A stretch of DNA of 64,000 nucleotides, taken from contig NZ_CP089468.1 in assembly GCF_021233435.1 (NCBI RefSeq), forward strand, positions 1,736,001 through 1,800,000, given 5' to 3'. The position numbers and the translations under genes are program-made. Positions 40,785 through 57,000 of the stretch are shown here, one piece after another (the stretch's first letter is position 1; each line of letters opens with the position of its first letter). This stretch comes from Halobacterium noricense. GTDB lineage: Archaea > Halobacteriota > Halobacteria > Halobacteriales > Halobacteriaceae. The notes beneath the pieces were generated by a model. The model did not search any database and was not told the DNA's origin. It saw only the letters and a list, made by a program, of their open reading frames with translations.

Positions 40785-40868
40785 GCGCGGGTAGCCAAGC
40801 CAGGAAAAGGCGTAGCGCTTAGGACGCTATCCCGTAGGGGTCCGCCGGTTCAAATCCGGTCCCGCGCA
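40785..40868 (+). tRNA. tRNA-Leu (anticodon UAG)
   Basis: 84 bases. Acceptor stem GCGCGGG pairs with CCCGCGC. The anticodon stem is TAGCG/CGCTA around the loop CTTAGGA, giving anticodon TAG. A long variable arm (TCCCGTAGGGG) marks a class II tRNA, and the T arm is GCCGG-TTCAAAT-CCGGT. The discriminator base is A, as required for Leu; CCA is not encoded. The 3' part from the anticodon loop to the discriminator (40818-40868) is repeated exactly at 56854-56904, so this tRNA is the integration site of the adjoining element. Confidence 0.95.
40818..40868 (+). repeat. attL: left attachment repeat, 51 bp
   Basis: The 51 bases from the tRNA anticodon loop (CTTAGGACGC...) to its discriminator base are identical to 56854-56904. 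The bases on either side differ, so these are the exact repeat limits. The tRNA stays intact because the copy at this end rebuilds its 3' half. Confidence 0.93.
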
Positions 40869-40917
40869 CTACCGTACCCCGTCGCTGTCTTGCTATTTTC
40901 GGGCTAACTGAGCAAGC

Positions 40918-42084
40918 ATGAATGACGATCTCGAAACGACGCTGAAGGACTGTTCCGTAATTTCAAATAGCCAGTTGGCTGATGATAGGCACATTCGCAT
41001 CGTTCCGGAATCGCCAGCAAGCAAGCTGACCGACCAGCAATTCGTCGACTATCACGAATATAGAAAGAGTTTCCTGTCATACCTGTTGAACGTCGGCAAG
41101 AACGAAGATAAAGCCGAAGGGTACTCGCCCTACACCGTTTACGCCGACAGCTACAGGCAAGTCCGCTTCGATGAATGGGTCTGGAATCAAGCCGATCAAT
41201 ACAAAGTACCACCCACACAGAAGGACGCGAGCGCGTACCTCGAGCATATCGCGTTCAGCGACAAGTCCCAGACGTGCAAAGGCAAAATCCAGGAAGCTCT
41301 CCTTCGATACTCCAAATGGCTCCAGCACAAGTACGGCCAGAACGCCTGGGAGTTCGAGTGGTCGTTCGACGGGAGCGGCCAGAGTAGCGCCCAACCACAA
41401 GACTTCCTGAGCGTCGACGAACGCCGGAAAATCCGTCAGGCCGCCCTCAACGAAGGGTCAATCCCCGCACGAAGCGGCCTCACCGCGAACGAACGCAAGG
41501 AGTGGGCGGGCTACATCGCCCAACTCCTCGACAAACCCATCGACGACGTCACCACGGAGGACTGGGACGACATCGACGGCTGGAAAGTCACCTCCATCGT
41601 CTGGACCAGCCTCGACGCCGGCCTCCGGCCAGTCGAGGTCGCCCGCGCCCGCACCTCCTGGGTGGACACCGCCAACGACGTCCTCCGCATCCCGAGAGAC
41701 GAGTCCAGCAAGAACGAGGGGAACTGGACAGTGAGCCTCACGGAACGCACGTCAACGGCGCTCGACCGGTGGCTGACCGAACGCGAGATGTACGACCGCT
41801 ACGACGACACCGATGCGCTCTGGCTCACGTACCGTGGGAATCCGTACAGCTCCCAGAGCCTTCGGCGACTCCTCCGTCGGCTGTGCGAGGACGCCGGCAT
41901 CGAGGTTGAGAACCGGAGCATGTCGTGGTACTCCATCCGACACAGTGTCGGGACGTACATGACGAAGGAACGCGACCTCGCGGCGACCAAGGCCCAGCTC
42001 AGGCACAAGAGCGCGAAGACGACGATGAAGTACGATCAGGTTCCCGTCGAGGACCGCCAAGACGCTCTTGACAAAATGGGGTAA
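40918..42084 (+). CDS. int: Tyrosine recombinase (integrase)
   Basis: 388 residues. The N-terminal half is a SAM-like core-binding domain (FVDYHEYRKSFLSYLLNV; VPPTQKDASAYLEHIAFSD). The catalytic half shows Arg in SLDAGLRPVEVARAR (near 237), the RH box SWYSIRHSVGTYM (near 336-345), LRHKSAKTTMKYDQV (near 360-374) with His/Lys, and the nucleophile Tyr372. All active-site positions are present, so the enzyme looks functional. It sits directly inside attL and must drive the tRNA-Leu site-specific integration and excision. Confidence 0.92.
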   Translation: MNDDLETTLKDCSVISNSQLADDRHIRIVPESPASKLTDQQFVDYHEYRKSFLSYLLNVGKNEDKAEGYSPYTVYADSYRQVRFDEWVWNQADQYKVPPTQKDASAYLEHIAFSDKSQTCKGKIQEALLRYSKWLQHKYGQNAWEFEWSFDGSGQSSAQPQDFLSVDERRKIRQAALNEGSIPARSGLTANERKEWAGYIAQLLDKPIDDVTTEDWDDIDGWKVTSIVWTSLDAGLRPVEVARARTSWVDTANDVLRIPRDESSKNEGNWTVSLTERTSTALDRWLTEREMYDRYDDTDALWLTYRGNPYSSQSLRRLLRRLCEDAGIEVENRSMSWYSIRHSVGTYMTKERDLAATKAQLRHKSAKTTMKYDQVPVEDRQDALDKMG

Positions 42085-42967: not shown

Positions 42968-44080
42968 CTACCGTCCGTTGTCTGTGAAGACCTCATGCCC
43001 GGTCTTGACGAGGTTCACAAACTCGTTTGCCACTTCCTCCAGGAACGCATTATCGCTCAGTACGTCCGTGGAATCTGTTTCCCAGTCCATCCGGACGATT
43101 CGATCCCGTGATCGCGTCTGGCTAACAGTGAAACCACGCTTCTCGAAATGGTCGGCTTGATCGCGGATAGTTGTAAGTACCTCTTTGTCCTCACCCATGT
43201 AGTCTATTGCGACGAGTACGCTCTCCCACTTGGCTGGACGAAGATACAGCGTATACTTGATCCCCGCTGGCTGGTCGAGACTGTCAGCCGCAATATGTGG
43301 ACGATAACTGTCGATCTCCTTGAACGCCTTACTGGATACGTTTATCCCAATCTCTGACTGGAGCTTCGGGATGATCCGCCCACTGAGATTGGTGGCGACT
43401 TCCGGATATGTAGGGTTGGTTGTCCCTTCGGGGCGGATACGCGAGAGCTCATAGTCAAGTACCATATTCGTGGCAAGGATCAAATGATCTATCCCAGTCT
43501 CGAACTTTTGGACTTCGACACACTGGAAGTTAAGGCCCCGCTCAAGAAGGTACCGTGCATTACTATGTGTCTGTTTAGTAATGTCTTCAGCTATGATAAC
43601 CATCCGCTGGTCAAGGTTGAACTCATCTGGCTCCAGCGGCTCTCCGAACACAGCTTCGAACGATGATTGGAGATCATTAGCGGGTACAGCGGAGTCGCTA
43701 ACAGCCCACTTCCCACTCTTGATGTCTTCTCGGTAATCCTGATAAATATCGTCCAAGCGATCGTACGTGTACGATTCAAGCGACTGAGCGTAGTTCTGTG
43801 GTTGGCTTAGGATGGTCTCCTCGCTTGCACTCCCGGAGCCACTTTGTCCGACTTTCAGTTCGATAATGAGGAGGTTGCCGTATTGGTCGAGAGCAAGAAG
43901 ATCGAGGATGCCTGTATCGACCTGTGTCTGTCGGCCGAAAATAAACACCGGCTCGTCCAGAATCGCTTGCGGGTTTGCGTGAAGAATCGATTCAAGCACG
44001 GACTCCTTTCGAATGTCCGACCTCGCCAACTCGTCAGCCACAAACTCCGAGTTGTTCTGAGCGAGGTCAAAAGTGCGCAT
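42968..44080 (-). CDS. NucS/DUF91-like PD-(D/E)XK nuclease
   Basis: 370 residues from MRTFDLAQNNSEFVADELAR. The N-terminal third has a PD-(D/E)XK-like layout: ESVLESILHANPQAI (helix Glu), VDTGILDLLALDQYGNLLII with D60, then E74-L-K76 in IIELKVGQ. This is the NucS/DUF91 pattern, but chromosomal NucS (about 250 residues) has its nuclease at the C-terminus, so this is a different branch. The C-terminal region is unassigned (KYTLYLRPAKWESVLVAIDY). DNA cleavage, perhaps in defence, is inferred. It is divergent from the PadR-type regulator. A start eight codons upstream is possible. Confidence 0.72.
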   Translation of the reverse strand: MRTFDLAQNNSEFVADELARSDIRKESVLESILHANPQAILDEPVFIFGRQTQVDTGILDLLALDQYGNLLIIELKVGQSGSGSASEETILSQPQNYAQSLESYTYDRLDDIYQDYREDIKSGKWAVSDSAVPANDLQSSFEAVFGEPLEPDEFNLDQRMVIIAEDITKQTHSNARYLLERGLNFQCVEVQKFETGIDHLILATNMVLDYELSRIRPEGTTNPTYPEVATNLSGRIIPKLQSEIGINVSSKAFKEIDSYRPHIAADSLDQPAGIKYTLYLRPAKWESVLVAIDYMGEDKEVLTTIRDQADHFEKRGFTVSQTRSRDRIVRMDWETDSTDVLSDNAFLEEVANEFVNLVKTGHEVFTDNGR

Positions 44081-44188
44081 GGAACTCTCGTCGCCAACCA
44101 CCAATATATTTCTGGTGTGTTGTATTTTCTAACCGGTTCTAATTTCTTTTATATACCTTACAAGAAACCGGACAGGATTTTCTCGGAG

Positions 44189-44495: not shown

Positions 44496-45758
44496 TCAGA
44501 GACCAAGATCTTCCCGGACGTCCGCGGCGGAAAGTATCCCACTCTCGGCGAAGAAGTCCTGAATTCCTGGTCCAGTCGCATCCCCAGGACCGAGACTAAA
44601 CATAGGGTCCCGCAAACTGTTCTCAAGTAGTGCGAGGAGTGCGTCGGCTTCGACGAGCCGAACTTCCTGTATGTCGGTCGTGATTTTGAGAGTTCGAACC
44701 GCCTCTTGGCTCTCGTCAGAAATGCCACCGGATATAACCGCGAAGTAGATGTTCCGGAACCCTTGGTTTCGGAGGGTTGGAACCTCTCTGTTGATATAAT
44801 CTTGAAACTGTCTTTCATCCCCCGTGTTTATGCTATACCCGTCACGACGGACTTTCGCATCGTAGATTATTGCGTAGTTATGCATCCGATCCTTAGCGAC
44901 ACCGTCGGGGTTTCGACCCATCCCTTGGCCCAATTCCTCAACCTCGAATCCGATCATTCGGAGGCATTTCGCGAGGCGGTTCTCAAACAGCGTCTCAACG
45001 GCGTTCCCAGTCTCATCGGCAAGTTCCTCCATCTCCTCGGTATTATCCGCAAGGTCCGGGAGAATAGACACAATCGGTGGTGTGTAGCTATCTGGGAGTG
45101 TTTGATGTGTGGTCTCCGCTGACCCATCATCGTCATCTTCGTCGAACTCGTCGCGCTGTTGCCAGTACCAAAAGGCGTGCTCAACGGTCCACAGATGCAT
45201 TTCTCGCCCAGTATAGTCAGCCAGCGATTCGCGCATCTCCTCGTTTAACTCCCAGAACTCAGCATAGCTGTCAGCCAGGTCGTCTTTCGGCTCCCAGATT
45301 GCAAGGTCGGAGAGCGCATTCACCATCGACGTGTAATAGATGGGGTATCGGTCAGGGTCGTGTACTTGCCAGAAGTACGAGAGAAAGTACGGAATTGACC
45401 CTGGACGAGGTGCTTTTCTGAGGTCCTCCGCTTCGTTGCGAAGACGTTCGACGAACCCTTCCAGGGTACGAATCCTCTCTTTGGCCGCACTCTCGTCTTC
45501 TGGTGGTTGGATGAGGTTTCGGAGGAGATCAGCAAGTTCGTCCCGCCGACCTTCGCCAGCGGAACTGTAGAGCATATTGAAAAACATCATCCCGTTCATA
45601 CCTTTGAACCCCCAGTATGGGAATCGCTTATTTTGCCCATCAATCTCCGACTTGAACTCGCCCAGCGCCATGTCTTCATCGAGGAAAGAGCCTATGAGGT
45701 CACGGAGACGGGGGAGTCTATCATGTCGGCGCTCGTCGGCCGTCTCCATGTCGACAAT
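44496..45758 (-). pseudogene. Restriction-like nuclease gene, main fragment, split by IS
   Basis: The remaining frame encodes about 420 residues. A helical N-terminal region (FKGMNGMMFFNMLYSSAGEG; PYFLSYFWQVHDPDRYPIYY) recalls the targeting part of McrB-like proteins. The C-terminal part has a PD-(D/E)XK-like core, GRNPDGVAKDRMHNYAIIYD with AKVRR, as in type II restriction enzymes of the AlwI kind. Reading upstream across the insertion sequence and one target copy continues the frame to MPLADTQQLTRVWDAFEENE at 47259. The intact protein would have been 449 residues. No methyltransferase gene is nearby. The downstream METADERR start might still give a shortened protein. Confidence 0.75.
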
Positions 45759-45769
45759 ATCACCCTGGC

Positions 45770-47172
45770 CATTCGTCTTTAGCTAAGCGAGGAACCGCGT
45801 GACAGCAGCGGCTTATCGAGGATACTTTTTGAGAGGAACGAGGAGGCGGCAAGTGTGCACCAAGACGCCTCCTCATCGAGAATCATGCGTCGTCTTACTA
45901 CACTGTTTCCTTCTGAGTTCCTCGAAGAGCACGCCGAGGAACTCGGCGTGGTCGAACGCGAGGGCAAGCTTCAGATTCCCGTCCTCGTATGGGCGCTCGT
46001 GTTCGGCTTCGCCACAGGAGAGAGCCGAACACTCGCTGGGTTCAGACGTAGCTACAACTCCACAGCCGATGAGACGATCTCTCCCGGTGGCTTCTATCAC
46101 CGGCTGACGCCGTCACTTGCAGAGTATCTCCGCGACCTCGTCGAGCGTGGTCTCGACGAGGTCGCTGTTCCCGACGCTGTTGACGCTGATATCGACCGAT
46201 TTAGAGACGTGATGATCGCTGATGGAACGGTGCTGCGGTTGCACGAGTTCCTTTCCGACGAGTTCCAAGCTCGCCACGAGGAGCAGGCTGGAGCGAAGCT
46301 CCACCTGCTCCACAATGCCACCGACCAGACGATTGAACGGATTGACGTGACCGATGAAAAAGCGCACGACAGCACGTTGTTCAAGACGGGGTCGTGGCTG
46401 CATGGACGGCTGGTTTTGTTTGACCTAGCGTACTTCAAGTACCGCCGCTTTGCGCTGATCGACGAGAACGACGGCTACTTTGTGAGCCGGTTGAAGCAGA
46501 ACGCGAATCCGGTGATAACAGAGGAGTTACGGGAATGGCGCGGGCGCGCCATTCCCTTGGAAGAGGAGAAGATCCACGACGTAGTCGGTGATCTCTCGCG
46601 GGAGTACATTGACGTAGAGGTCGAAGCGGAGTTCAAGCGGGGTCAGTACGAGGGAACACGGTCGCTAGACACGAAGCGGTTCCGCGTCGTCGGCGTCCGG
46701 GACGAGGACGCCGACGACTACCATCTGTACATCACAAATCTACCGAGAGAAGAGTTTCTCCCGGCAGATCTAGGGACGCTGTATCGGTGTCGATGGGAGG
46801 TAGAAACGCTGTTTCGTGAGTTGAAGACGCAATACGAACTAGATGAGTTCGACACGAGCAACCCTGTTGTGGTGGAGATTTTGCTGTATGCGGCGTTGCT
46901 GTCGCTGCTAGTGAGCCGTGAGTTGTTGGATCTGGTCACCGAGCAGGCTGACGACGAGATCGTGTTTCCACCGGAACGCTGGGCGGCGACCTTCCGGTCG
47001 CACGCCCAGCTCATTCTTCACGAACTCGGTGAGTTCCTCGGCTACTCACCACCGCCGCTGTTGGAGCGGCTGATCGAAGACGCACAGAAGATCCACCAGC
47101 AACGACCGATACTGCAAGAGACGCTCGCTACCGCTACGCAACCGAGGTGTGAGGCTTAGCTAAAGACGAATG
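45770..47172 (+). mobile_element. IS4-family insertion sequence (ISH8-like)
   Basis: 1403 bp. Perfect 19-bp terminal inverted repeats: CATTCGTCTTTAGCTAAGC at 45770-45788 and its complement at 47154-47172. Flanking 11-bp direct repeats ATCACCCTGGC at 45759-45769 and 47173-47183 are the target duplication. Size, repeat length and transposase type match the haloarchaeal ISH8 group of IS4; the exact name would need a database match. Ends, duplication and transposase are all intact, which suggests recent transposition. Confidence 0.93.
45885..47159 (+). CDS. IS4-family transposase
   Basis: About 424 residues from MRRLTTLFPSEFLEEHAEEL. DDE residues are visible: Asp in RDVMIADGTVLRLHEF, Asp in LVLFDLAYFKYRRFALIDEN, and Glu in the YREK-like YRCRWEVETLFRELKTQYEL. 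It fills the insertion sequence. An in-frame GTG ten codons upstream is an alternative start. The frame is uninterrupted, so the element may be active. Confidence 0.92.
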   Translation: MRRLTTLFPSEFLEEHAEELGVVEREGKLQIPVLVWALVFGFATGESRTLAGFRRSYNSTADETISPGGFYHRLTPSLAEYLRDLVERGLDEVAVPDAVDADIDRFRDVMIADGTVLRLHEFLSDEFQARHEEQAGAKLHLLHNATDQTIERIDVTDEKAHDSTLFKTGSWLHGRLVLFDLAYFKYRRFALIDENDGYFVSRLKQNANPVITEELREWRGRAIPLEEEKIHDVVGDLSREYIDVEVEAEFKRGQYEGTRSLDTKRFRVVGVRDEDADDYHLYITNLPREEFLPADLGTLYRCRWEVETLFRELKTQYELDEFDTSNPVVVEILLYAALLSLLVSRELLDLVTEQADDEIVFPPERWAATFRSHAQLILHELGEFLGYSPPPLLERLIEDAQKIHQQRPILQETLATATQPRCEA

Positions 47173-47385: not shown

Positions 47386-48212
47386 GTGACTGACAAGTCC
47401 AGCGATCAGCTTCGCTTCGGTGAAAATGGCGAGCTCAAAGAGAGAGAAGAAGAATCACAGTCAACAGCCAATCTGAAAGACGACGGTGATCCTATGGGGA
47501 GATTCCAAACCAAAGGTGGATTCTCGATATTCCCCGTTAGTTCGTTACTCCAAAAATCGGTTAGGCGATCAGATGAAGAACTCGCGGCATGGGCGGCCTG
47601 GGAACTCGTCCGATCAGGCTACGAATCGATGTTCTGGAAACGTGTACTCACAATAGCCACCGAGGATATTAGCGTCAGAGATGACGTGACTACACAGATA
47701 CGTTCACTGTACAAGCTCGGAACCGGCCAGGAGAATGCTACGAGTGGATGGTCAGGCGATGAGGAAAGAGGACGTATCTGTGCGATCAGGGCGGCCCTCA
47801 CATGCGCCCAAGCGGAGTCCAGCCGGTTGAGTGACATCTCAACAACACCTTTGAGCGGATCGCTGACGAGCGTGTCAACGCCGCTGAGGAAGGTCGTGAC
47901 CCAGTCTACGACTTCCCCGCCGGCCAGCTCAATATTGATGGTCAATACGATGTGATTCACGATATGCATACCTCGACTGGGTCGGGGAGGAATCGCGGCT
48001 ACAAGCACTTCCTGGTAAACTCGTCAAGAACAGATTCGGTGGCTGATCAGGAAGTGCACTTCAAGCGGATTAACATGGAACTGGTTGAACGAGCTGATGA
48101 CACCGACGCTGAGTTCTCCGATACTGAGATGGACCACGCATTAAGTACAGTTGATTCAGAAAATCCGTGGCGAGAACCCGATTTTGAACAGGACACACTT
48201 GGTTCTAAGTAA
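47386..48212 (+). pseudogene. Frameshifted gene, RarA/MgsA C-terminal-like protein
   Basis: The first frame from a GTG reads FQTKGGFSIFPVSSLLQKSV, RRSDEELAAWAAWELVRSGY and RVLTIATEDISVRDDVTTQI, similar in pattern to the C-terminal domain of RarA/MgsA AAA proteins, without the ATPase part. Near 47840 the coding sense passes to another frame (NTFERIADERVNAAEEGRDP; DVIHDMHTSTGSGRNRGYKH) that runs to 48212. One missing base explains the shift. The product would be about 275 residues if repaired. Function in the element unknown. Confidence 0.6.
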
Positions 48213-48860
48213 TATTGAGCCCCAAATTTCGACGCCCCTAAACACCCCGATAGATGCCCTGACACACCCCCTCGGCTAATTTTACAGACGGCTCCGATTT
48301 CACCGGAAGGTGGTTTGGTGTCCCCGAGTCATTCGGGTGTAATCTACTGAACGGATAGAAATTCTCACCCCCCAGATTTCCTAAGTCGCCCACGTGCTTG
48401 ACACCCCCCTCATTTCCTAAGTCTTTGAGGTGAGAAAGAGACGGTGGCCTTGCGAGCTGGCCGACACGGGTGATGGCATGCCAGTTCGATTCAAGGACTG
48501 GTAACACGACGACGATCTCACGGAACTATTCTCCTTAATGTACTAAGATTTGAATCGTTTTCCTTACACAGACAACCGTATGCTGTCTATCATTTCATAG
48601 TCGTAATTGATCTGGAAATCGTTAATTTGCTCCCACGGTATATTGGGGAATGAATAGCTCGTCAAAACCGGTATTAACTCAGGGTGTCTCGTTATCTACG
48701 AGAGGTGACAAAGTAGAGACTACGCGGTTAGAACGGGATGAGGGAGGTGCCTCAGTGGAACGCCGGGTCAAACGTTCCTACTATTGTGTTGCCCTTGATG
48801 GGTTATTACTCTTACTGGGGATGATCTTGATCCCGTGATACCGTATCTCTGATATAATTA
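48213..48860. other. Non-coding region with iteron-like repeats
   Basis: About 650 bases without a convincing gene. A 62-residue frame at 48650-48838 with a hydrophobic end is doubtful. The block CACCCCCC-NN-ATTTCCTAAGTC occurs twice, 36 bases apart (ending at 48387 and 48423), with a weaker C-run relative near 48262. AATGTACTAAG at 48537-48547 matches a promoter motif found twice more in the element. The region lies directly upstream of the Cys-cluster ATPase and is a candidate origin or control region. Confidence 0.5.
48366..48423. repeat. Tandem direct repeats with C-runs
   Basis: Two copies of CACCCCCC-NN-ATTTCCTAAGTC, with ATTTCCTAAGTC at 48376-48387 and 48412-48423. On the minus strand each reads GACTTAGGAAAT followed by a run of G. 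A motif next to a G-string is also the layout of haloarchaeal origin boxes, but the core sequence is different. Confidence 0.7.
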
Positions 48861-50732
48861 ATGGATGACCATTCAGTCCCCAGTGACGACGACAAGCCTA
48901 CACAAATACCTGAAGATGTGATAATAGAGAAAGGTGATACAATCAGATCAGAAGTCTCTGGATATATCCATGATCTCCTCCGTCAGTGGTCGACTGAGAG
49001 TCCCTTTCTCGTTCATTTCAAAACGACTCAAGGAACTGGCAAAACAACCGGAGGAATGGACGCGGTCGAAATAAAAGGTCCCGCGGCGGCATTTGGCCCG
49101 CGACACGTCGATATTGACGAGGATGCGGATCGGTTCGGAGAGAGATACAGCATTAGATTTGTCGGCAAGGACAAGGCCTGTACGAACGACCGATTCAAAG
49201 ACAAGCATAGCTCTGTGAGCAAAGAAGTCAGTAAGGATTGGTGTGATGGTTGCCCAGAGAGAGACAGGTGCGAATATTTTGAGCCGTTCAACCAAATCGA
49301 AAACGAAACCCGTAGCCTAACGGCCCCTCACAATTACCTCGAAATCTTCCCAGACATTCTCGATCAGTGGGATGAAATTGAGGTTATACTGATCGACGAG
49401 ACTCCGTGGTACAATATTTTCGAAAAAGCCATTCAAATTGGAGCCCAGGACATCACCCACACACGAAGCGCACTCAGAAACCTTGATGAAGGAAATAAGA
49501 GTGACAGCGAAACCATCGAGGACTCATTATTACTCCTTGATACGATGTCCTCGGCACTGACTGACGAAGACGGCGGTGAAAAACAGTCTAACCGAGCCTA
49601 CAAGCTTGCCACCGGTATTGATTTCAGTGAATTATCTACTGAGTTGACCGAGATTCATGATGAGCGAGTGCTTGATGGAACTGATTATACTGACGCAATC
49701 GTCGCTATTGCGGATAATTTAGAAGAAGTTGAGCGAACCACTCACTGGGCGAGTGAGCAAGGTATAATCGACGAATGTGACTCTCCACCGGACGAACTCT
49801 GGGGAGTTGATAACAGCACCAAGGACAACGCAAGCTTCGAACTCCGATGGCGCAACTTCGATCTGATGGAGATCGCTCGCCAAAAGCCAGTATTTGTCCT
49901 CGCTACAGAGATGCCAACTGAAAGCGTCGAAGCAATATTTGAATTGCCTGTTGTCACGGTCGAGGATACCGTCTCTCCAGATGCGGAAGTTATCCAGTTA
50001 GATTCACGAATGGCCGGCATCACGCGACTCCGAAAGCGAAACCAAACATTCGAAAACTTGGTAGAGTTCACACGCTTAGCTCTACGCCGGGAGTGTGCCA
50101 CCGGGAGAAAGACACTAATTGGAGTGAAAAAAGCCCTCAAAGATGATGTGCGTGAGCAACTACAAGAGAGTGGATTTGTCGAAGGCGACGATTTTGAACT
50201 TGGGTATTATTACGGGATGACGGGTAGCAATCGGTTTGAGGACTGTGACGCTTTTGTTGGCTTCGGCACTCCCGGCCTGTCTAACAACGTGACGGATACC
50301 AGTAGTGTCGTCTCCGGTGTATCGGAAAAAATCTTACAACAGGAGGGTCGCGAAGGAGAACTCCGAGATGCAATCCATCGCATCCGCCCAGCCCGTATGG
50401 AAGCCACTCCTCGGGTTTACTTGTTCACCAACGCGGTTGACCTCAGCTCGGATTTCAGCGGCACATATGAGCGATTCAATACACCTGACATTCGATCTAA
50501 GCTTACTCAACAGGTTGAGACAGCTGAGCGACAAAGCCGGATTCAGAAATTCATCCGAGACTCATCGCCTGATCCGACAATTACACAGATGGTGAAAACA
50601 CTACCATATGGACATTCTACGCTTACGTCCGAACTCCGGCACCTCAACAAACAGGGCGTAACAGAATCTCATGAGGATACAACGAAGGGACGGGGAAACA
50701 ATCCCACACGATACCGGCTCATTAGTTCTTAG
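48861..50732 (+). CDS. P-loop ATPase with Cys cluster, XPD-like helicase candidate
   Basis: 623 residues. Walker A is TTQGTGKTTGG (55-65). Cysteines follow in KACTNDRFKD (near 106) and WCDGCPERDRCEYFEPF (near 128-140), placed like the Fe-S domain of XPD/Rad3 helicases. Walker B is VILIDETPW (near 178). Later segments (QKPVFVLATEMPTESVEAIF; DAFVGFGTPGLSNN) fit motifs V-VI of a helicase only loosely. The C-terminus is a winged helix (TQMVKTLPYGHSTLTSELRH). It is the largest gene of the element and a candidate replication protein. DET replaces the usual DEAH box. Confidence 0.65.
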   Translation: MDDHSVPSDDDKPTQIPEDVIIEKGDTIRSEVSGYIHDLLRQWSTESPFLVHFKTTQGTGKTTGGMDAVEIKGPAAAFGPRHVDIDEDADRFGERYSIRFVGKDKACTNDRFKDKHSSVSKEVSKDWCDGCPERDRCEYFEPFNQIENETRSLTAPHNYLEIFPDILDQWDEIEVILIDETPWYNIFEKAIQIGAQDITHTRSALRNLDEGNKSDSETIEDSLLLLDTMSSALTDEDGGEKQSNRAYKLATGIDFSELSTELTEIHDERVLDGTDYTDAIVAIADNLEEVERTTHWASEQGIIDECDSPPDELWGVDNSTKDNASFELRWRNFDLMEIARQKPVFVLATEMPTESVEAIFELPVVTVEDTVSPDAEVIQLDSRMAGITRLRKRNQTFENLVEFTRLALRRECATGRKTLIGVKKALKDDVREQLQESGFVEGDDFELGYYYGMTGSNRFEDCDAFVGFGTPGLSNNVTDTSSVVSGVSEKILQQEGREGELRDAIHRIRPARMEATPRVYLFTNAVDLSSDFSGTYERFNTPDIRSKLTQQVETAERQSRIQKFIRDSSPDPTITQMVKTLPYGHSTLTSELRHLNKQGVTESHEDTTKGRGNNPTRYRLISS

Positions 50733-51028: not shown

Positions 51029-51268
51029 ATGTCAAACACGACTTCCGGAGTGGAAACGCTGTCGGTCACCGAGACTGAGATCAGCTATATCGACGCTCAC
51101 CGCGTCGTCAACAGGGAAGAACGAGTTCCCGGTCAGCACCCTGATCCATCACTACGTTCCGATGGTCAGACGGAATACACCGAGCGATACATCGAGTGTC
51201 TGGACTGTGGAGCCGAGAGGTTGAGCAAGGATGATTTCCCAGTTGAGTGCAACGGAGGTCAGCGATGA
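51029..51268 (+). CDS. Small zinc-ribbon-like protein, operon gene 1
   Basis: 79 residues. The C-terminus YIECLDCGAERLSKDDFPVE plus CNGG gives three Cys, a partial zinc ribbon. The N-terminal half is acidic (TEISYIDAHRVVNREERVPG). Its TGA overlaps the next ATG (ATGA), so translation is coupled to the following gene. Such trios are frequent in haloarchaeal accessory DNA; the function is unknown. Confidence 0.7.
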   Translation: MSNTTSGVETLSVTETEISYIDAHRVVNREERVPGQHPDPSLRSDGQTEYTERYIECLDCGAERLSKDDFPVECNGGQR

Positions 51269-51759
51269 AGATCGTCGACGCTCAGATCGACTGGCGGGAG
51301 GACGTCGGGAATGATCCCCGACTGGAGGTCCTCGTCGACGAAACGCCAGACCGGTCCGCACTTCGTTTCGAGCACGAGAGCGGACTCTGGACAGCCATCG
51401 ACGACGGTTACGTCGAGTACTTCGCCTGGAGCGGTGACGGGAATGATGGCGGTTTCTCCGGTCGGTCGTTCGAGGTGACGACCGTCAACGGCGAACAGGT
51501 CACGCTCAGAGGCCCGTGGAGTTCGAGAGCCGGCTGTGTGAACAAGCGACGGTTCGGGCCGGTCGTCGACGTGCGACTTTCGACCGACCCCAGCGTGCTC
51601 GAAAGAGGCTACACGTTCCAAACGGGAACCTTGACGTTGTCGGCGGCGAAGCAAGCTATCGACATCGCGGACGACGAAGCGCACTTCGAGCGGGTCGAGA
51701 AATTCGACAATAACGAACCCTACTGGGTGCCCGTCCGGGACGGCGGAGGTAGTGAATAA
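51265..51759 (+). CDS. Hypothetical protein, operon gene 2
   Basis: 164 residues beginning MKIVDAQIDWREDVGNDPRL. Predominantly beta (LRFEHESGLWTAIDDGYVEY; SFEVTTVNGEQVTLRGPWSS), with a helix near the C-terminus (SAAKQAIDIADDEAHFERVE). No catalytic motif is visible. It is flanked by overlapping start and stop codons on both sides, between the zinc-ribbon and SWIM genes. It is higher in GC than its surroundings in the element. Confidence 0.7.
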   Translation: MKIVDAQIDWREDVGNDPRLEVLVDETPDRSALRFEHESGLWTAIDDGYVEYFAWSGDGNDGGFSGRSFEVTTVNGEQVTLRGPWSSRAGCVNKRRFGPVVDVRLSTDPSVLERGYTFQTGTLTLSAAKQAIDIADDEAHFERVEKFDNNEPYWVPVRDGGGSE

Positions 51760-56974: not shown

Positions 56975-57000
56975 CGGTTCAAATCCGGTCCCGCGCACCA
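56975..57000 (+). repeat. Third partial copy of the tRNA-Leu 3' end
   Basis: 23 bases CGGTTCAAATCCGGTCCCGC plus GCA repeat the T arm and acceptor end, here followed by CCA. Between attR and this copy, GGACCGATTTGAACCCTGG at 56931-56949 looks like an inverted T arm of another tRNA. The layout suggests earlier integrations at the same site. Confidence 0.7.

Follow-up and report, generated by a model that had tools for sequence, protein, structure and literature searches.

A four-cysteine helicase gene, probably a divergent relative of Rad3/XPD/DinG, on an integrated element of Halobacterium noricense

Repair, transcription and CRISPR are the settings in which XPD/DinG-type iron-sulphur (Fe-S) helicases are known, and solved members available for comparison include E. 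coli DinG (6fws) and Thermoplasma XPD (9p55, 2vsf). As passages of PMC9826845 describe them, XPD/Rad3-like helicases have two domains, Fe-S and arch, set into helicase domain 1; they travel 5' to 3' and depend on the cluster to unwind DNA. In DinG, these two insertions together make a pore that takes single-stranded DNA (part of PMC10450177). The PrimPol-PV1 proteins of mobile elements share with the proteins considered below a primase, a P-loop helicase and a winged helix on integrated elements (parts of PMC5862659). Sections of that paper (Kazlauskas et al. 2018) report primases fused to many helicase types, name the PrimPol-PV1 helicases as RepA, DnaB, MCM, VirE, DUF927 and DUF3987 types, and bring in superfamily 2 (SF2) in figure legends only, without an XPD/DinG label; its main text mentions neither haloarchaea nor halobacteria. 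Searches limited to open-access papers, with lists of 10 to 15 titles each, gave no report of an XPD/DinG-type helicase paired with a primase. Here we describe a divergent helicase gene, P0001, on an integrated element of about 16 kb in the genome of Halobacterium noricense; the window analysed is a stretch of 64,000 nucleotides (contig NZ_CP089468.1, positions 1,736,001 to 1,800,000), and all positions below are those of the window.

On balance we favour the reading that P0001 is a very divergent Rad3/XPD/DinG-related SF2 helicase whose Fe-S domain is probable and which serves the replication of the element that carries it. For the wider family of its relatives, the Rad3/XPD/DinG link is well supported, and it would extend to P0001 by homology. 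The parts of the gene are as follows.

48861-50732, plus strand: divergent SF2 helicase P0001, 623 amino acids (aa), ATG start, assigned by homology comparisons
49023-49049, plus strand: Walker A (motif I) TTQGTGKTT, residues 55-63, nearly invariant between P0001 and its close relative P0002
49179-49271, plus strand: four-cysteine cluster C107, C128, C131 and C137 (C-x20-C-x2-C-x5-C), in register with three bacterial relatives
49329-49340, plus strand: HNYL, residues 157-160, counterpart of the DinG/XPD NHALV / NYxHL segment before Walker B
49395-49403, plus strand: Walker B (motif II) DET, residues 179-181
49404-49889, plus strand: about 160 residues inserted after motif II and before motif III, at the place of the XPD/DinG arch, positioned by sequence
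49902-49916, plus strand: motif III-like ATEMP, residues 348-352, aligned with LDATATP of the haloarchaeal/viral relatives
50376-50390, plus strand: motif VI-like HRIRP, residues 506-510 (GR[VLA]RP in five of eight bacterial rows)
50568-50720, plus strand: probable C-terminal winged helix, from the family alignment, Pfam matches of relatives and a low-confidence model

The first-pass annotation, made from the letters alone, had reported Walker A, then C-x20-C-x2-C-x5-C, then DET, and this spacing is exact in the protein. P0001 has seven cysteines in all. When seven were placed at random 200,000 times, 0.17% of the trials had four between the Walker motifs in a span of 31 residues, and 1.1% had four in such a span anywhere in the protein. 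As in Rad3/XPD/DinG, the four cysteines sit between motifs I and II, in a segment inserted into helicase domain 1, the order of parts is Walker A, four cysteines, an HxYL-like segment, Walker B, an insertion, motif III and a second RecA domain, and the cluster ends in C-x5-C. To judge from the sequence, this insertion in the first RecA domain probably holds a [4Fe-4S] cluster. Motifs I, II, III and VI of P0001, taken with the predicted fold of a relative (below), mark a two-RecA SF2 helicase. Only 54 residues precede Walker A, and no N-terminal primase domain was found in P0001.

E. coli DinG has cysteines C120, C156, C194, C199 and C205, with C194-x4-C199-x5-C205 followed by NHALV, and we take its cluster ligands to be C120, C194, C199 and C205. 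Unlike DinG, which has 73 residues between C120 and C194, P0001 has 20 between its first and second cysteines. In YoaA, the expected cluster ligands are C108, C168, C173 and C179 (passage of PMC9826845). P0001 also departs from Rad3/XPD/DinG in having a probable extra C-terminal winged helix, in drawing no match from Pfam DEAD_2 and in lying on a mobile element.

Sequence databases recognise P0001 poorly. It had no match in Pfam at E<=1, was unrecognised by NCBIfam, found no relative in PHROGs (two families of unknown function at E 0.04-0.05), and had none in PDB sequences, phages or plasmids; neither P0001 nor P0002 matched a PADLOC family at E<=0.01, defence helicases such as CasDinG included. 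Viral contigs held no relative detectable with P0001 or with profile A1, and genome contigs searched with A1 gave none either, the genome of P0002 (G334) being evidently outside that collection. Profile A4 found nothing in viral contigs, and profile A5 (both profiles are described below) found no helicase among PDB sequences.

Proteins of the P0001 type were found in two of the 391 genomes of the class, that of H. noricense and G334, whose copy P0002 is 35-38% identical to P0001 (37% in the genome search, 35% by BLASTP). A profile of the two found two of the 170 genomes of G334's family (G334 and a weak stretch in G290) and one of the 26 genomes of the window's own family, the genome itself. 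Conservation of the cysteines in homologues, the lack of which would have told against the original annotation, holds in both proteins of this type, with the same spacing (20, 2, 5).

When 392 genomes of the order were searched with a profile, four weak matches appeared beyond the gene itself. One is an 845-aa protein (L004/L007), a true relative, and another a 521-aa protein (L003/L008), which counts as a probable relative because its motifs, judged by eye, fit and because it is like L063/L082; the latter matches P0001 at 33% over 127 aa (E 2e-8). L005 and L006 were dropped as chance; their genes look like a regulator, presumably of the helix-turn-helix/phosphoribosyltransferase type. Other haloarchaea hold a second single-protein type (521 aa, L008 4349-5914; 659 aa, L063 355-2334), which has the P-loops AMGKS / ATGKS and C-x5-C, and is distantly like the window helicase.

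Residues 1-108 of the 845-aa protein correspond to the end of the primases of Halorubrum tailed viruses (60% match), and through this protein a 1157-aa protein of a Halococcus plasmid (P0003) was found. The helicase parts of both were made into a profile (A4) that matched 12 of 391 class genomes, yielding 14 genes from 17 rows, 10 of these genes within open reading frames 1194-1520 aa long. With a 14-row alignment (A5) as query, matches came from 12 viral contigs and from 13 genome loci, the loci all bearing haloarchaeal names. This haloarchaeal/viral primase-helicase family has no name in the records examined, and we refer to it as the fusion family; the set used comprises 28 distinct helicase rows, with duplicates removed, P0003 outside the set, and L060, L070 (frame without Walker A) and L061 (missed by the motif search) dropped. 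A crude primase-like motif stands upstream of Walker A in 23 of 36 rows (duplicates included), and four of the 13 rows without it begin at the edge of the fetched stretch. All six N-termini that were chosen from these rows and scanned match primase PHROGs, and one of the six matches Pfam Prim-Pol. The fusion family resembles P0001 in its homologous helicase, its cysteine cluster (at least four cysteines between the Walker motifs in 26 of 28 rows) and, in many members, a C-terminal winged-helix-like segment; unlike P0001, many members have an N-terminal primase, there are extra zinc-ribbon-like cysteines in the insertion, and the cluster is spaced differently. The automatic Walker B search ended early in at least L019, L021, L050 and L058, which only lowers their cysteine counts. 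In L013-L026 (alignment A5), the extra element between motifs II and III has the form CPxC...C...C.

Searches by tblastn with the 845-aa protein also reached Acetobacter and Rhizobium plasmids (E 3e-4 and 4e-4), the Rhizobium protein consisting of Prim-Pol (E 3e-8) followed by a helicase. Its helicase part, used as query, found 18 plasmid records, of which nine were examined, and by annotation or Pfam a primase lies within or directly before the helicase in six of these nine regions (Rhizobium, Bosea, Acetobacter pasteurianus, Acetobacter persici, Acidiphilium and Bradyrhizobium). The primase is of the Prim-Pol type in Rhizobium, Bosea, Acetobacter and Acidiphilium. The Walker A half of the A. 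persici helicase lies inside a gene annotated as primase/polymerase, and in Bradyrhizobium a toprim protein comes just before the helicase; Komagataeibacter and Methylobacterium have no annotated primase in the stretch examined, and the Methylorubrum record is unannotated. Phage records gave no match to the Rhizobium or Komagataeibacter query. These alphaproteobacterial plasmid helicases come nearest to P0001 in cysteine spacing, with C-x19/20-C in all nine rows and C-x5-C in seven (not Rhizobium or Methylorubrum), and they differ from it in being longer and often fused to or beside a primase.

Profile comparison with hhalign shows a homologous helicase domain common to P0001 and the fusion family. 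The P0001+P0002 pair scored 98.4% (E 4e-15) against 14 fusion-family rows, from the second RecA domain to the C-terminus, and the same (98.4%, E 4e-15) against all 28. Against the Bradyrhizobium, Komagataeibacter and Methylobacterium proteins, the pair scored 97.8% (E 7.6e-13); this alignment has 447 columns, begins at Walker A, reaches motif VI and keeps the four cysteines, H157 and Walker B in register. Against all eight bacterial rows the pair scored 96.2% (E 2e-9). When the pair and the three bacterial proteins were joined, the five scored 99.8% against the 28 rows (E 8e-28, 526 columns). Twenty column shuffles reached at most 0.8% for the pair against the three, 0.7% for the pair against the 28 and 0.2% for the five against the 28. 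The bacterial trio matches a Rad3/DinG set best over 44 columns that begin at the fourth cysteine and end at Walker B (94.1%, E 1.3e-7); the Bradyrhizobium relative matches Pfam DEAD_2 in this same region (E 0.0095, under the cut-off). Against XPD-like rows alone, the best match of the trio was the P-loop (76.4%).

Structure models point the same way for a relative. The helicase part of L064, a fusion-family member (866 aa, primase left out), was modelled with a mean predicted local distance difference test (pLDDT) of 81.7 and a predicted TM-score (pTM) of 0.77, the only confident model obtained; it matches DinG/XPD across both RecA-like domains. Foldseek against the PDB gave 22 matches at E<=0.001, the best with E 3e-9. 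Fifteen of the first 21 bear the title XPD, DinG or CasDinG; the other six belong to TFIIH, transcription or repair complexes, in which the matching chain is presumably XPD/Rad3. The 22nd is DdmDE. The TM-scores of those 21 are modest (0.29-0.36 by query), with large root mean square deviation (rmsd). In VIA-align, E. coli DinG came first (Z 20.8, rmsd 5.1, 465 aligned), followed by CasDinG at 18.1 and DEAD-box proteins from 17.1, a gap that leaves only DinG clearly standing out. BFVD gave 15 matches at E<=0.001, among which is a phage protein whose name is DinG/Rad3-related.

The winged helix that had been proposed for the C-terminus is probable on the following grounds. In the low-confidence model, residues 542-620 of P0001 form helix-helix-helix-strand-strand, and with 14 fusion-family rows the C-terminus aligns with that of the family; with 28 rows, the alignment ends before it (profile column 553). 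Among 14 fusion-family members, three match Pfam HTH_29 (best E 0.0018) and two Cdc6_C (best E 0.0064). The P0001 C-terminus itself had no meaningful match in Pfam or PDB sequences.

The element that carries P0001 is low in G+C, with 1-kb windows at 0.39-0.61 against 0.63-0.73 in the flanks shown. Its main features, apart from the helicase, are as follows.

40785-40869, plus strand: tRNA-Leu gene, the integration target, with an exact 51-nt attachment (att) core at 40818-40868
40918-42084, plus strand: tyrosine integrase (Pfam Phage_integrase, E 5.9e-18)
42968-44104, minus strand: NucS-like nuclease (Pfam NucS_C, E 2e-4, just below the cut-off)
45770-47172: transposase gene between 19-bp inverted repeats
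47386-48212, plus strand: phrog_16866-like gene in two frames; a single open reading frame beside P0002
48366-48423, plus strand: two 22-nt direct repeats (48366-48387 and 48402-48423) inside an imperfect inverted repeat
51247-51759, plus strand: conserved neighbour of 170 aa, 81% identical to its counterpart beside P0002
51759-52145, plus strand: SWIM zinc-finger neighbour, 59% identical to its counterpart beside P0002
56854-56904, plus strand: attR, an exact 51-nt copy of the 3' part of tRNA-Leu

The phrog_16866-like gene is probably frameshifted, and its product presumably resembles the C-terminus of RarA. The element also holds a PadR-like regulator and several unknown genes. A gene at 44496-45749 (minus strand) has a C-terminal likeness to the FokI cleavage domain (E 4.3e-5, just below the Pfam cut-off), and beyond attR, at about 56975-56998, the tRNA-Leu 3' end is partly repeated once more (about 23 nt), possibly as the trace of a separate integration there.

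The genes adjoining P0002 in G334 are of the same kinds: by BLASTP, the integrase is 36% identical, the phrog_16866-like and NucS-like proteins 46% each, and the 170-aa and SWIM proteins as listed. Gene order is the same in both genomes, except that the NucS-like and phrog_16866-like genes are swapped; the NucS-like gene is on the opposite strand in both. The same partners beside P0001 and P0002 indicate that the helicase travels with them in two haloarchaeal families. The G334 integrase adjoins tRNA-Thr, and since the stretch examined there has no direct repeat of at least 22 nt, the borders of that element were not set. Relatives of the 170-aa neighbour also occur in other haloarchaea (L080, L081, L083), with no helicase match within 10-18 kb around.

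The repeats sit in the 648 bp preceding the helicase gene, and from their sequence they could, speculatively, be an origin. Their core of 17 specified bases occurs genome-wide only at these two sites, with up to two mismatches allowed. They look like half of the origin box of haloarchaea, a likeness given little weight; an origin-box pattern has one site, elsewhere in the genome. The upstream stretches of P0001 (with the repeats) and P0002 share no 11-mer, and two-copy repeats reported by a repeat finder are often due to chance.

Several results weigh against reading P0001 as a Rad3/XPD/DinG-related replication helicase. Its own model is poor (pLDDT 48, pTM 0.31), no fold emerging in it for the insertion of about 160 residues after motif II, and its VIA-align rows are generic SF2 proteins (chromatin remodellers, Brr2 and others, Z up to 13.4); Xpd4 (Z 11.9) and DinG (Z 11.6) score on a level with remodellers and Brr2, and these rows were rejected as evidence for XPD. 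The model supports a two-RecA SF2 motor and no more than that; a non-helicase fold, which would tell against the first-pass reading, is countered by the XPD/DinG-like fold modelled for L064 and only in generic terms by P0001 itself. Pfam DEAD_2 was silent at the P0001 locus in a search of its own genome, DEAD_2 being a detection aid for Rad3/XPD/DinG and not a defining property. In profile comparison, the P0001+P0002 pair alone scored 0.4% against haloarchaeal XPD/DinG and 2.3% against the five Prim-Pol-type bacterial rows, and these five scored 6.1% against the Rad3/DinG set. Fusion-family rows match haloarchaeal XPD/DinG in the P-loop surroundings only (65 columns, 85.8%), and mixed profiles reach 94% against Rad3/DinG (20 column shuffles at most 0.1%); since an ordinary DEAD-box protein, RhlE, scores 94.8%, the P-loop match was rejected as family evidence, which was confined to the columns between the fourth cysteine and Walker B. 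Cysteine spacing in the fusion family is different (x9-11, x7-9, x3 in 23 of 28 rows), and five of the 28 (L013, L023, L024, L059, L072) depart from this pattern, which implies that the cluster is not strictly needed. On the side of replication, no primase was recognised among the scanned genes of the element, and Pfam Prim-Pol had no match in the host genome, a silence that is weak evidence because the profile also misses five of six primase-like N-termini of the fusion family. A shorter pattern derived from the repeats has two matches in the window, against a mean of 0.93 in shuffled sequence, and 25 of 100 shuffles reach two. Lastly, the NucS-like protein matches the PADLOC candidate-defence families PDC-S11 (best E 3.4e-27), so that its gene is possibly defence cargo. 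The XPD-like Fe-S proposal is in this way borne out in part: by the wider family and the model of a relative, and for P0001 itself through them.

The alternative that survives best keeps the same helicase family, and otherwise overlaps our preferred reading, with the cysteines binding zinc or forming a decayed structural knuckle in place of an Fe-S cluster. C-x2-C plus C-x5-C would also fit zinc, and the five divergent fusion-family rows speak for this reading. CasDinG of type IV CRISPR, a DinG-type helicase also matched by the L064 model, lacks three of the four cluster cysteines, unlike P0001, and works in CRISPR; according to the portion of PMC10450177 that treats it, it keeps the Fe-S-type domain without the cluster, so loss of the cysteines need not end function. 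We nevertheless consider zinc or a knuckle unlikely, since the cysteines lie between Walker A and HxYL-DE as in DinG, the first follows a GK/GR stretch and the last pair is C-x5-C, again as in DinG.

A second alternative, which we rank after zinc and also judge unlikely, is that P0001 is a repair, excision or defence helicase working with the NucS-like nuclease, and not the element's replication helicase. A NucS-like gene with candidate-defence matches near the helicase in both genomes, together with the absence of a recognised primase from the element, makes a repair or defence role possible. In the Thermus element ICETh2, as parts of PMC7693054 report, a mutant without the primase-polymerase replicated the element normally and the enzyme was linked to defence, while in a helicase mutant the induction of the circular form after ultraviolet irradiation was much limited. 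Set against this, PADLOC recognises neither P0001 nor P0002, and relatives are joined to or beside primases. That P0001 is a generic P-loop/SF2 protein with a coincidental cysteine cluster and no special relation to Rad3/XPD/DinG seems to us highly improbable: its own model and profile do not single out XPD/DinG and RhlE scores as high on the P-loop, but the cysteines are in register across archaea and bacteria, and XPD/DinG proteins top the structure search for L064.

Returning to the favoured reading of a Rad3/XPD/DinG-related helicase, we counted two things for a replication role: an element that has an integrase and att sites retains the gene, which in another haloarchaeal family again stands among genes of these kinds, and relatives are fused to or neighbour primases. 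With the winged helix added, the initiator-helicase role suggested by the first-pass annotation is plausible, and a replication role of P0001 is a reasoned guess. For P0001 itself, we infer an XPD/DinG-like fold, bound iron, 5' to 3' polarity, origin binding and a part in replication. The integrase would first excise the element; the winged helix of P0001 would bind element DNA; and the helicase would open the duplex, moving 5' to 3', with the strand threaded between its Fe-S and arch domains in the manner of DinG/XPD. Priming would be supplied by the host, which we propose because no primase was recognised in the element. More tentatively, and with well under even confidence, we suggest that a separate Fe-S lineage of Rad3/XPD/DinG may serve archaeal and bacterial plasmids, integrated elements and viruses as their replicative or initiator helicase, in many cases next to a primase or fused with one; here it would act without a primase of its own, with a winged helix that would read the upstream repeats.

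If this is true, XPD/DinG partners of mobile-element primases would be an added helicase class for primase-bearing elements. P0001, being small and without a primase, would be a convenient form to assay, and unannotated haloarchaeal and alphaproteobacterial proteins would gain a testable role.

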